Assembly: GCA_021737045.1 (NCBI GenBank)
Contig: JAIPES010000001.1
Location: forward strand, 1-64,000
Direction: 5' to 3'
Origin: Desulfobacteraceae bacterium
GTDB taxonomy: Bacteria > Desulfobacterota > Desulfobacteria > Desulfobacterales > Desulfosalsimonadaceae
Length of the DNA: 64,000 nucleotides
How positions within the stretch are numbered: the first letter of the stretch is position 1; each line of letters starts with the position of its first letter. Position numbers and translations under genes: made by a program. Shown one piece after another: positions 10,876-52,003 of the stretch. The notes under the pieces were generated by a model that worked only from the letters and a program-made list of their open reading frames with translations, was not told where the DNA came from and did no database searches.

Positions 10876-12192
10876 CTATTGTTTTCGTACCCGGTACTGG
10901 TCTTCGGGCCGGTCCTGGAGCAGGATCATGTCATAGGGGCCCATATCGGTTTTTTCAAACCACTGGTATCCGGTTTTGCGGCAGTTTTCACAAGCTTTGC
11001 GGGGAATGTGGACAGCCAGCACCCGCATTTTTCTTTCCACGGAAGAGTCGATTTTCAAAACTCCGCTGCATTCCCGGCACACCTGCAGGGTTTCATGCTG
11101 GGTTTCATAAAAACCGTCCGTGTCGTAAAAAACGGTATTATTGCGCTCGGCATAAATCACGTTTTCCTGCATGCGGATGCGGATGTTTTGCCGGTCGTTC
11201 CAGGTATCTATGACCTGCTGGCAGGTTTTTTCAATGGTTGCGGTGATGCTGGGGCCCTGGCGGAGACGTTCGGCCGAGTACTCGGGTTCCACCACGTGGC
11301 TGTAATCCATGCCGGCCATGGCCAGAATGAGGCCGACATTGACGTAGGGAAGTGCGCTTTCAATGGAATATCCGCCTTCGAGCACGGCAATGTCGGGCTT
11401 GAGCCGGGCGGTGAGATCTGCGTACCCTTTGGCGGAAAAATTCATGTTGGTCAGCGGGTCTGTGAAATGATTGTCCTGGCCGGCGGAATTGACGATCAGA
11501 TCCGGCTTGAACTCCTGGAGTATGGGCAGCACGGCTTTTTCCAGAACGGTGAGAAAACCTTCCTCCGAGGTATAGGGCGGAAGCGGGATGTTTAAGGTGG
11601 TGCCCGCAGCCGTTGGACCGCCGGTTTCATTGTTAAAGCCCGTGCCCGGAAACAGGGTCCGGCCGTCCTGGTGCATGGAGATAAACAATGTGTCCGGATC
11701 ATGCCAGTAAATGTCCTGAGTGCCGTCGCCGTGGTGGCAGTCCGTGTCAATGATGGCCACCCGGTCAATGCCATAGGCCTTGCGGAGGTATTCGATCATG
11801 ATGGCTTCGTTGTTGACGTTGCAAAAGCCTCTTCCCCCATGGACCACGCGCATGGCATGGTGGCCCGGGGGCCGGACCAGGGCAAATCCGCGATCCACAA
11901 GACCGTCCATTTTGGCCTTGCCGATGGTTTTGGCACCGCCGGCGCTGATGAAATGCGATTCGGTCATAACGCTTCTGGCGTCCGGCACGCAGAAATGAAC
12001 CCGCTGTACATCCTCGATATCCACCACACCGGCCTTGAATTCGTCAATGCCTTCAACGTCAAGAAGGCCCTCCTCGGAGATCTGGTCCTGGGTGTAAAGA
12101 AGGCGCTCTTCGCGCTCCGGGTGAGTGGCGCTGATGGCCCAGTCGTATGCCGGGAAAAAAACCAGGCCCGTATGGGTCTTGGCCTTTAGCAT
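10876..12192 (-). CDS. histone deacetylase family protein (acetoin utilization/HDAC fold)
   Basis: 438 aa; LVRPPGHHAMRVVHGGRGFCNVNNEAIMIEYL...VAIIDTDCHHGDGTQDIYWHDPDTLFISMHQDGRTLFPGTG. Confidence 0.9.
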   Translation of the reverse strand: MLKAKTHTGLVFFPAYDWAISATHPEREERLLYTQDQISEEGLLDVEGIDEFKAGVVDIEDVQRVHFCVPDARSVMTESHFISAGGAKTIGKAKMDGLVDRGFALVRPPGHHAMRVVHGGRGFCNVNNEAIMIEYLRKAYGIDRVAIIDTDCHHGDGTQDIYWHDPDTLFISMHQDGRTLFPGTGFNNETGGPTAAGTTLNIPLPPYTSEEGFLTVLEKAVLPILQEFKPDLIVNSAGQDNHFTDPLTNMNFSAKGYADLTARLKPDIAVLEGGYSIESALPYVNVGLILAMAGMDYSHVVEPEYSAERLRQGPSITATIEKTCQQVIDTWNDRQNIRIRMQENVIYAERNNTVFYDTDGFYETQHETLQVCRECSGVLKIDSSVERKMRVLAVHIPRKACENCRKTGYQWFEKTDMGPYDMILLQDRPEDQYRVRKQ

Positions 12193-13895
12193 GGGGTTTC
12201 TCCGTTTCGGGATTGTTTTTTGATTTGTGCGATGATCTTTTCATACTGGCCGATGAGTCCGGGCCGGACCTGGACCTTGATGCGGATGTTTTTGCCGATC
12301 ATCCGGAAATCGCGCACCATGTTAAATTCCAGCGCCTCGGTGACATCGGTGACAAGGTCGCCTGAGCTGGCCCCTTCCCTGAGGGCTTTTTTCTCCAGCA
12401 GTTCCGTGGCCATTTCCGTGGCATCGGCCATTGTAAAACCCGGCTTCAGCGCCTGGACAAACATTTCCTCAGGGGCCGAGGCCTCAAGCTTGTAGGTGTC
12501 TGCAAACAGGGTCACTTCGCATGTGGTGCGCGAAAGGGCCGTGCCCACGGCGTTGGCTACGTCCCAGTGGGGTACCACGCTGACCTGGTAATCAGAAATA
12601 GCCGTAAAATTTTCTGCAAACATGGGTGCCGGCCCGCCGAGTACCAGCAGCCGGGTGGGCTTGATGCGGTGGCCGTGAAGGGCCTCGCGGACCGTGTAAA
12701 CGGGCCTGCTGTTGATCAGGCTCACCATTTGCCGGGCGGAATCCAGAATTTCCCGACAGGTCTGGTCAAATATTCGCCGGGCGGCTTCAGCAGTGGAAAT
12801 TCCCAGAAGCTGCGCAATGGCCTCAATGCCTTTTTCCGCCTTTTCCCGGTCGCCGTTTTGGGCCTTGCCCAAAACAAAAAGAGCGTCTGTGGGGGTGGGT
12901 TCCGGCCCGCCATAGGCCATGGCCGGACCGGTTCTGTCCGGTCCGATAAACAGGTGTCCGTGTTCCACCCGCACCGTGCTGTCACCGCCCAGGCCCACGG
13001 AATAGGAGTGCAGGGCCCGGATCAGGGTTTTGTGTTCAGCGATTTCGATTCCGTAGGGTGCCAGCACAGGCACGCCATTGATGAGCACGGCCATATCCGT
13101 GGTTGTGCCGCCGATATCGAGCACGATGGTCTCTTGGTCATCTGCGGCAAAACCGATGGAGCCCATCACGCTTGCCGCCGGTCCGGAGAGAATCGACTGG
13201 CCGGGAAAGTCAATGGAGGTTTCAAAATCCATGGTCCCGCCGTCTGCCTTGAGGATATATATGGGTATCTGGATGCCTTTTTTGTCCAGAGATTGCCGGA
13301 CGGCCTCAAAGAAGCGTTTGTGCAGGGGATACACGGATGCGTTTAAAAAAGCCGTGGTGATGCGGCGGGGAAAGCTGAAGTTGCCCGAGACGTTGTGCCC
13401 GAGAAAGACCTTTTCGAACATGGGGGAAATGATTTCCCGGATGCGTTTTTCATGGGTCGGGTTGCGGATGGAAAATTTGCCCACCACGCCCACGTACTCG
13501 ATGCCTGCCTCCCGCATGCGGGATGCGGCATCTTCCACCGCTTTTTCATCGAGCTTGACAATTTGCCTGCCGCTGTGGTCCATTGCCCCGGCCACCCGAT
13601 AGTATTGCTCGCAGGTGCGGAAATATTCCGGGTCAATGCCGGGTCCGCAGGTCACGATCATACCAACGGCCGGAAGCTTGTCCTGTACAATGGCGTTTGT
13701 GGTCAGGGTGGTGCTCAAAACCGCGTGGGAGATTTGGCTGATGTCAATATCGCGGGTGATGTGTTCCAGGCCGGAGAAAACCGCATCAAAAAGCGCCGAT
13801 GTGTCGGTTGGCACCTTGATCCGTCTTTCCAGGCCGTTTTCGCCCACAAGAACAACGTCGGTATGGGTTCCGCCAACATCTAATCCGATGATCAT
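12186..13895 (-). CDS. hydantoinase/oxoprolinase family protein
   Basis: MIIGLDVGGTHTDVVLVGENG...VLDIGGTTTDMAVLINGVPVLAPYGIEIAEHKTLIRALHSYSVGLGGDS; start placed at 13895 rather than the ORF-track 14156. Confidence 0.88.
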   Translation of the reverse strand: MIIGLDVGGTHTDVVLVGENGLERRIKVPTDTSALFDAVFSGLEHITRDIDISQISHAVLSTTLTTNAIVQDKLPAVGMIVTCGPGIDPEYFRTCEQYYRVAGAMDHSGRQIVKLDEKAVEDAASRMREAGIEYVGVVGKFSIRNPTHEKRIREIISPMFEKVFLGHNVSGNFSFPRRITTAFLNASVYPLHKRFFEAVRQSLDKKGIQIPIYILKADGGTMDFETSIDFPGQSILSGPAASVMGSIGFAADDQETIVLDIGGTTTDMAVLINGVPVLAPYGIEIAEHKTLIRALHSYSVGLGGDSTVRVEHGHLFIGPDRTGPAMAYGGPEPTPTDALFVLGKAQNGDREKAEKGIEAIAQLLGISTAEAARRIFDQTCREILDSARQMVSLINSRPVYTVREALHGHRIKPTRLLVLGGPAPMFAENFTAISDYQVSVVPHWDVANAVGTALSRTTCEVTLFADTYKLEASAPEEMFVQALKPGFTMADATEMATELLEKKALREGASSGDLVTDVTEALEFNMVRDFRMIGKNIRIKVQVRPGLIGQYEKIIAQIKKQSRNGETPC

Positions 13896-14070
13896 GGTCT
13901 GCCCCTGGTCTATGGGATCGTTTCGGCGTATCCGGCGGCTGGCCGGACAATGCGTGTCTCTAACATTGCTAACCGATATGATCATCGTTGTCAACCGAAT
14001 CATCGGGCCCCGGGCAGCGGTGGCGGATTTTGGTTTGCTTTGTGAAGGGGCTTGCCCGCTGTCTTTTAGG

Positions 14071-14178
14071 GGTTTTCGCATGATGCGGGCCGGTGGGGGC
14101 GGTTTGCTCCCTGCTGATTGCTTGCGCGCCCAATGCGACTCGCAACCCCCCCCCACCGGCCCGCATCATGGCCAGCGC
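14071..14178 (+). repeat. covarying-arm hairpin element, copy A (core in + orientation)
   Basis: ggttttcg flank; arms 14079-14106 and 14143-14170 are complementary (26/28); core CTCCCTGCTGATTGCTTGCGCGCCCAATGCGACTCG shared with three other loci. Confidence 0.85.
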
Positions 14179-14400
14179 CCGTCCTTGGACTTCCTTGGCC
14201 GTGCTTCCCCGGAGCAAACCCCGGGATCGCGCATGAACAGCAACTTTTTTGGAGTAAGTCAGAAGAAGTTTAAACAGTTTCATGGCGATTTTTTTATGTG
14301 GGCCTGGCTCACGCGACAGGAACAGGCGTTTACAATTTGCATTTTTCGTGGAAAAATGCCAGTGCTTGCAGAAAAACTTTCTCGGCCCCGGAAGAGCGTT

Positions 14401-14516
14401 TCCAAGGAAGCCCAAGGGCGGGGTCGGTTTTTGATGCGACATTGAGCGTTTACGAATCTTTTCCGTAAACGCTCAGGAGCGAAAAAACTGACCCCGACCG
14501 CAGGGCTTCCTTCCTG
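14401..14516. repeat. long inverted repeat / hairpin (family 2, short-apex version)
   Basis: tccaaggaagcccaagggcggggtcggtttttgatgcgacattgagcgtttacg pairs with cgtaaacgctcaggagcgaaaaaactgaccccgaccgcagggcttccttcctg; related sequence at 30346-30547. Confidence 0.85.
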
Positions 14517-14598
14517 AGAAACATCCAGGCGATGTAAAAAACTTTTACGAAAGCATCAATTCTGATGCGGCCGGATAAAAAGAGGTGAAAGCACGCGC

Positions 14599-30251: not shown

Positions 30252-30345
30252 GGCTTGCTCCCGGATATATCCTCGGATTTCTCTTCTTGGGATCTGTATC
30301 CTTGATGGTTTCGTAAAAAGCTTTTTACCGCGTCCGCTGTTGTTG

Positions 30346-30547
30346 CAGGAAGGAAGCCCTGCAGCCGGGGTCAGTTTTTTCGCTCCTGACCGTTTACGGA
30401 TTCAGCCAATGCCTTCGCTTAAAATTTCAAGAACTCGGCCTGTCGGCCTCAAACAGTTTGAAATTTTTTAGCTCCGGCATTTGCTGAATTTTTCCGTAAA
30501 CGCTCAATGTCGCTTCAAAAACCGACCCCGTCCTTGGACTTCCTTGG
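30346..30547. repeat. ~200-nt near-palindromic hairpin (family 2, extended-apex version)
   Basis: Outer arms caggaaggaagccctgcagccggggtcagttttttcgctcctgaccgtttacgga / tccgtaaacgctcaatgtcgcttcaaaaaccgaccccgtccttggacttccttgg, with nested attcagcc..tgctgaat and atttcaa..ttgaaat pairs. Confidence 0.85.
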
Positions 30548-30664
30548 AAGTCCTAAAACTGGTATAATCGCCAATCAATAAAAAAATAACTTTTTGATTT
30601 TACTTAACACTTAATCACTTAAAACTTAACACTGCCTGTAAAAAAGACTTTTTACAGGCTTATC
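30548..30664. repeat. ~117-bp intergenic repeat, inverted relative to 46931-47047
   Basis: aagtcctaaaactggtataatcgcc...gattttacttaacacttaatcacttaaaacttaacactgcctgtaaaaaagactttttacaggcttatc. Confidence 0.88.
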
Positions 30665-36913: not shown

Positions 36914-36960
36914 TTTTTACCGTGTCCGATGTTTGTCAGGAAGGAAGCCCTGGGGCCGGG
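36914..36960. repeat. half-copy of family 2 repeat
   Basis: tttttaccgtgtccgatgtttgtcaggaaggaagccctggggccggg, related to 30322-30368 and to the reverse complement of 51641-51685. Confidence 0.7.
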
Positions 36961-37142
36961 CATGAAAACAACGCTTTTTAAGATTTGAATGTGTTCCTCC
37001 CGACTCCCTTGGTGTGAAAGTTTGCACACAGCCGGCATCATGCGAAAATTATAGAACCAAGTACGAACAGCGACTTTTTTGAAGTTAGAAGAAGGCCTTT
37101 TCATGTGGCCGGGGCGGAAAAACAGCACCAAAGAGGGAGTTT

Positions 37143-37930: not shown

Positions 37931-38037
37931 GGGTTTTCGCACGCGGGGCGGTCGGGGAACGGTTTGCTCCCTGCTGACCGCTTGCGCGCTCAATGCGACT
38001 CGCAAACCGTCCCCCGCCCGCCCCGCGTGGCCGGCCA
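37931..38037 (+). repeat. covarying-arm hairpin element, copy B
   Basis: arms 37940-37966 (cacgcggggcggtcggggaacggtttg) and 38003-38029 (caaaccgtcccccgcccgccccgcgtg) complementary 25/27; core CTCCCTGCTGACCGCTTGCGCGCTCAATGCGACTCG. Confidence 0.85.
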
Positions 38038-47047: not shown

Positions 47048-47086
47048 TTTACGATTCCATCAAGATTGAAGGCTTCGTAAAAAGTC
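47042..47086. repeat. hairpin (family 3)
   Basis: agactttttacg ... cgtaaaaagtct. Confidence 0.75.
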
Positions 47087-47094
47087 TGATTTCA

Positions 47095-47219
47095 GATGGT
47101 GCCGTAAAAAGTTCAAGATCAAGGCTTGCGCAATTTCGAAGAATGCAGCGTACTTATCCGTACGTGAAATTCTGAGAAATTGCGCGTAACGCAGATATTG
47201 GACTTTTTACGGTGCCATC
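47095..47219. repeat. ~125-nt near-palindromic hairpin (family 3)
   Basis: gatggtgccgtaaaaagttcaagatcaaggcttgcgcaatttcgaagaat ... attctgagaaattgcgcgtaacgcagatattggactttttacggtgccatc, apex cgtacttatccgtacg. Confidence 0.82.
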
Positions 47220-47252
47220 AAGATTGATTCCATGTTCCAGGGAGGCCTGCCC

Positions 47253-51693: not shown

Positions 51694-51796
51694 GGTTTTC
51701 GCATGAGCAGTCCCGGGTGGCAGCTTGCTCCCTGCTGACCGCTGGCGCGCTCAATGCGACTCGCAAGCTACCCCCGGTCCTGCTCATGGCCAGCCA
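51694..51796 (+). repeat. covarying-arm hairpin element, copy C
   Basis: arms 51702-51727 (catgagcagtcccgggtggcagcttg) / 51764-51788 (caagctacccccggtcctgctcatg); core CTCCCTGCTGACCGCTGGCGCGCTCAATGCGACTCG. Confidence 0.85.
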
Positions 51797-51901
51797 TCGT
51801 GTCAATTGCGGGTATCCGGGAAAAGTTCCCGGGGAAAATTTTCAGGGAGTTTTTGCAGATGGGTTAGATGTCATTAATTGACCTCACCGCGCTTGCAGAA
51901 A

Positions 51902-52003
51902 GTTGGCCATGGGGCTGGGCGGGCGGCGGTTTACGAGTCGCATTGAGCGCGCCAGCGGTCAGCAGAGAGAAAATCGCCGCCTGCCCAGCCCCATGCGAAA
52001 ACC
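51902..52003 (-). repeat. covarying-arm hairpin element, copy D (opposite orientation)
   Basis: arms 51908-51933 (catggggctgggcgggcggcggttta) / 51970-51995 (aaaatcgccgcctgcccagccccatg), mismatches mostly G-U compatible; core on minus strand CTCTCTGCTGACCGCTGGCGCGCTCAATGCGACTCG. Confidence 0.85.

Follow-up and report, generated by a model that had tools for sequence, protein, structure and literature searches.

REPINs are, in behaviour, the nearest known system to the repeat family described here. Compensatory changes are common in REPINs, the length of the spacer and the capacity to form a hairpin matter, and their spread is linked to RAYT (PMC3116915, Bertels and Rainey 2011). The present family resembles them in consisting of miniature, dispersed, non-coding hairpins with fixed ends, compensating stem changes and many copies per genome (PMC3116915). 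However, the ends of a REPIN are two inverted, near-invariant 16-mers tied to a RAYT gene, whereas the ends of this family (TTTTCG and TGGCC) are not inverted copies of one another, its apical core is conserved and RAYT is unlinked. The CGTC REPs form a REP super-family without a dedicated transposase (PMC3733652), and recognition of E. coli REPs is strand-specific and requires a conserved mismatch in the stem (PMC8266576). Both the GTAG- and the CGTC-tagged REPs are palindromic and contain subfamilies with alternative complementary stems (PMC3733652), but they measure 20-40 nt and carry a tetranucleotide tag, while this element is about 97 nt long and untagged, with a long interrupted stem and a structured core. 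ERIC and RU-1 to RU-3, set beside the family by description, are likewise intergenic repeats, of about 100-170 bp, with MITE-like behaviour (PMC2759123 for RU). Their host lineage is enterobacterial and differs from that of this family. Integron attC sites preserve their structure while the stem sequence varies, with one strand folded, and in these respects the family is similar. Unlike attC, it bears no RYYYAAC/GTTRRRY terminal boxes and no cassette array, and reading of the ends excludes that identity.

The elements were encountered in a window of 64,000 nt, the whole stretch of Desulfobacteraceae bacterium DNA that was analysed. The first-pass annotation recognised no REP, attC, riboswitch or terminator type in them, and the comparisons agree. 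Across copies and genomes, neither GTAG nor CGTC stands beside the stem, and the outer ends are not mutual reverse complements apart from the letters of the arms. Y1 (PF01797) genes occur in seven of the nine genomes of the genus, all from incomplete MAGs, and none was found in G000 or G002. Of the genus Y1 loci, 12 were examined with flanks of about 1.5 kb, and no element lies in these flanks. Because tag, ends and RAYT linkage all fail, the family is not REP or REPIN. Rfam gave no match in the window at the gathering score, and at E<1 returned for copy A just generic microRNA hairpins, far below threshold. The hairpin of copy A was not called as an intrinsic terminator; its stem is followed by GGCC on one strand and by GCGAAAA on the other. 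A literature search on the lineage found no description of such a hairpin repeat family.

A family united by its core and its outer ends

The four loci were located where the first-pass annotation had placed them. Their features, with window coordinates, are given below; boundaries of copies A-D are those of the covariance model.

14073 to 14173, better-folding strand minus (model match plus): copy A; ortholog in genome G004 at C1:157938-158032
14079 to 14107, plus strand: left arm of copy A, an inverted repeat of 29 nt, 93% complementary
14142 to 14170, plus strand: right arm of copy A, partner in the same 29-nt inverted repeat
14107 to 14142: conserved core of copy A, an internal loop and a small hairpin with a 4-nt loop; core pattern at 14111-14142, structure columns 49-75 of the alignment
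37934 to 38032, better-folding strand minus (model match plus): copy B, between convergent ORFs; ortholog in G004 at C1:133530-133629
51696 to 51791, better-folding strand minus (model match plus): copy C; orthologs in G004 at C1:120084-120180 and in G002 at C311:3008-3104
51905 to 52001, better-folding strand plus (model match minus): copy D, inverted relative to C; orthologs in G004 at C1:119928-120021 and in G002 at C311:3228-3324
36950 to 37061, plus strand: a hairpin-less site with the flanks of the majority subfamily and 11 nt of one arm; full copy in G004

Covariance models, one built from 16 copies of the window's own genome and one genus-wide, define an element of 97 nt. From its TTTTCG end it proceeds through an outer stem, which mostly opens with CATG or CAGG, and an inner TTTG/CAAA helix to an internal loop, and then through a small helix to a 4-nt loop, after which the mirror half follows; the termini across copies and genomes are TTTTCGCA... 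and ...TGGCC(A). As had been proposed, the arms are reverse complements of each other, in copy B over 28 nt and again at 93%. Folded as single-stranded DNA, copy A reaches z = -5.2 on the plus strand, where no shuffled sequence folded as well, and z = -6.4 on the minus strand. These copies are members of one family with a conserved core and conserved outer ends.

The genes next to the window copies are ordinary ones, namely Hydantoinase_A, deaminase, GlnE, kinase/FGE-sulfatase, UvrD helicase and RdgC-like genes. The gap that holds copy A is flanked, as first described, by a Hydantoinase_A gene and a cytidine-deaminase-type gene. A long GTG-started ORF (12186-14156) crosses this copy by extending the Hydantoinase_A gene upstream; the Pfam match of that gene is consistent with a start near 13900. 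The spacer that separates a UvrD-type helicase gene from an RdgC-like gene holds copy C and, about 110 nt away in inverted orientation, copy D (51696-52001); this inverted pair is retained in both G004 and G002.

Distribution, inheritance and neighbouring repeats

A search of the own genome (2.86 Mb) for the core pattern gave 27 occurrences with up to 3 mismatches (20 exact), and none for the reversed core pattern, used as a control. At least 32 copies are scattered over both strands of this genome, which bears out the expectation of dozens; the true number is probably higher, since several contigs end within or beside a copy. The arms had been called unique to each copy. This holds for the four window copies and fails genome-wide, as about two thirds of the own-genome copies share a common arm type (CATGATGCCGGCCCGG...) together with at least 40-60 nt of conserved flank. 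Copies A-D are an old, divergent minority.

The proposed covariance-model search of the genome and of other Desulfobacterota found the family in all nine genomes of the genus, whose named members are Desulfobacteraceae or Desulfobacterales MAGs, and in none of the 27 other genomes of the bacterial family or the 284 others of the class. The copies in each genome of the genus number roughly 4 to 40, and the model matches at E<=1e-5, including some antisense duplicates of one copy, 4 to 46. The majority arm type differs by species group, being CATGATGCC... in G000, G002 and G004 and CAGGG(T/C)CGGGCC... in G001 and G008; subfamilies have expanded separately in different species. Among all GTDB species representatives, the exact core fragment was found only in this genus, apart from single hits in Hyphomicrobium and Nocardia that the covariance model rejected as members. 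Viral contigs gave no exact match, and plasmids gave none.

All four window copies have syntenic counterparts in G004, and two of them, C and D, have these in G002 as well. The window copies were therefore inherited vertically and are not fresh insertions, so that they do not display the mobility or palindrome regeneration that the first-pass annotation had suggested. G007 carries an element of matching orientation about 500 nt upstream of its deaminase ortholog; it is likely, but not certain, to be orthologous to copy A, because the hydantoinase gene of G007 is on a different contig. The hydantoinase/deaminase spacer contains half an element in G008 and no element in G006.

Other copies differ between relatives. 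Two copies of G004 (C1:170339 and C1:147133) sit within composite inserts of about 450-490 nt that are missing at window positions 2077 and 24526, and the hairpin-less site at 36950-37061 would represent either excision or deletion of the hairpin; the direction of gain or loss in these comparisons of G004 with the window is not polarised. Some copies have been kept for long at orthologous places, and others occur in one species and are missing from the corresponding site in another. Sites with and without the element had been expected to reveal any target duplication. At the two polymorphic sites, whose unit is the larger composite, none is clear, and there is no terminal inverted repeat outside the stem.

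Two further repeats were observed in the window. The own genome has at least 54 matches to a near-perfect palindrome of 147 nt (47075-47221, termini GTAAAAAGT / ACTTTTTAC), and the other genomes of the genus have from at least 8 to at least 51 each. Among the matches listed, identity between species is mostly 95-99%, in a setting where orthologous genes are often just 70-80% identical; it may reflect recent spread, transfer or extreme constraint. The G004 composite insert that corresponds to window position 2077 contains this palindrome beside the hairpin. A separate dispersed palindromic repeat (GGGGTCGGTTTTTGA...GCGACATTGAGCGTTTACG ... CGTAAACGCTCAGGAGCGAAAAAACTGACCCC) is present at 14400-14559 and 30313-30550, with copies across the genus.

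Pairing, folding strand and competing explanations

The covariation expected of a structured nucleic acid is present. Neither outcome that would have refuted the first-pass proposal, a lack of covariation beyond chance or identity with a known family, was found. An alignment of 55 distinct copies has 95.4% of its cells paired, with 21 of the 30 pairs changed on both sides, and its covariation score is 0.414 as compared with 0.123 +- 0.007 after shuffling and at most 0.059 for slid partners. Relatedness was addressed through these slid-column controls and through counts among orthologs. Over 15 independent ortholog comparisons (500 pairs), 15 double-sided stem changes were found, 13 of them still paired, against 3.1 expected under independent mutation of the arms; none of 200,000 draws reached 15. 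All 20 ortholog comparisons together give 14 changes that compensate, 13 that keep a wobble and 40 that break the pair. Stem pairing is maintained, though broken intermediates are common, a pattern consistent with selection acting over a pool of copies or with correction by template switching.

The strand that folds better is not the one first described. Of 114 distinct copies, 107 fold more stably as the reverse strand under RNA parameters and 110 under DNA parameters, and the advantage of this strand is seen in the core and the arms separately. Read on the reverse strand, 101 of 115 copies have a GNNA loop, in which the two middle bases vary, and 114 of 115 close the loop with a C-G pair; in the main subfamilies, tandem G-A mismatches adjoin the outer stem. 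Moving outwards from the inner helix, 76 of 106 copies show A-C or C-A as their first mismatch, which becomes a G-U wobble when read on the reverse strand. Counting G-U against A-C as a strand test is neutral in the arms (18 G-T and 21 A-C cells, about equal), so the claim for the reverse strand rests on stability, the GNNA loop and the tandem G-A mismatches. The wobble pairs of the core favour the strand of the original finding, by way of one U-G pair.

It is probable, in our judgement, that the elements are genus-specific, non-autonomous, miniature hairpin-forming repeats, REPIN- or MITE-like in behaviour and recognised as a folded single strand. They are non-coding, many and dispersed, mostly intergenic by ORF context, and vary in presence and absence between relatives, as miniature repeats do. 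Their gene context is unbiased (12 convergent and 9 divergent pairs, 9 same-strand and 9 opposite-strand), as is expected of a dispersed DNA element and not of a terminator or cis-regulatory element; genes were called here by a simple longest-ORF rule, and 9 copies fall inside probably spurious ORFs. A host or transposon protein would recognise the folded strand, probably during replication, through the long stem, the tandem G-A internal loop, the GNNA loop and the fixed ends, and copies would thereby spread. If only foldable copies are recognised, the stem would stay paired while its letters drift, and settled copies such as A-D would then slowly decay. Against this reading count the results on the Y1 genes given above, the lack of a terminal inverted repeat outside the stem and of a clear target duplication at the two polymorphic sites, the stable orthology of the window copies and the larger composite nature of the polymorphic units; no movement was observed.

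The elements might instead be a multicopy structured RNA family transcribed from the reverse strand and folded into a long stem, a tandem G-A internal loop, a short helix and a GNNA tetraloop, with selection acting on the RNA, for example via protein binding. This is unlikely. It would account for the reverse-strand stability under both parameter sets, for the constant loop with its varying middle bases and for the mismatches beside the outer stem, and also for a hairpin identity that mostly exceeds that of the flanks between orthologs, a comparison biased towards copies that still match the model. However, the elements show no orientation bias relative to neighbouring genes; the sole promoter-like match near copy A is within chance and no terminator signal rises above it (a weak scan); an RNA gene would not usually have 4-40 copies per genome; the wobble counts favour neither strand in the arms and the other strand in the core; and GNNA loops and tandem G-A mismatches, stable in RNA, are stable in single-stranded DNA too. 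Equally unlikely is a genus-restricted multicopy structured nucleic acid with the reverse strand (GNNA loop, tandem G-A motif) as its functional form, possibly an RNA recognised by a dedicated putative protein, whose genome-specific arms are under pairing selection.

Pairing might instead be kept without selection, in inert hairpins whose paired changes arise by template switching at replication (quasipalindrome correction). The excess of broken over compensatory changes among orthologs agrees with this, as do the three double changes that cluster in ortholog set E and the retention of a G-U pair in 13 of 53 single changes, which points to weak selection against intermediates alongside an excess of double changes. 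Nevertheless, indiscriminate correction would erase mismatches, and here the core, the GNNA loop, the tandem G-A loop, the fixed ends and the recurrent A-C/C-A mismatch persist; spread within genomes would also require a separate cause. Selection is favoured over template-switch correction because mismatches and loops are conserved, and we regard inert hairpins as quite unlikely. REP or REPIN repeats moved by RAYT (TnpA-REP) are very improbable, for the mostly intergenic hairpins with conserved mismatches, the inverted pair C/D and the Y1 genes of the genus are met by the missing tag, the missing inverted 16-mers and the lack of any element beside the Y1 genes examined.

A well-supported hairpin repeat family, bigger and more structured than REPs, is added to those known, and, being without an adjacent transposase, it poses the same question as the CGTC REPs. 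It also opens the question of whether the pairing of a palindrome is kept by selection on the folded strand or by correction at replication. Natural experiments are available in the genus, in the form of orthologous copies with swapped arms and of matched sites with and without the hairpin.
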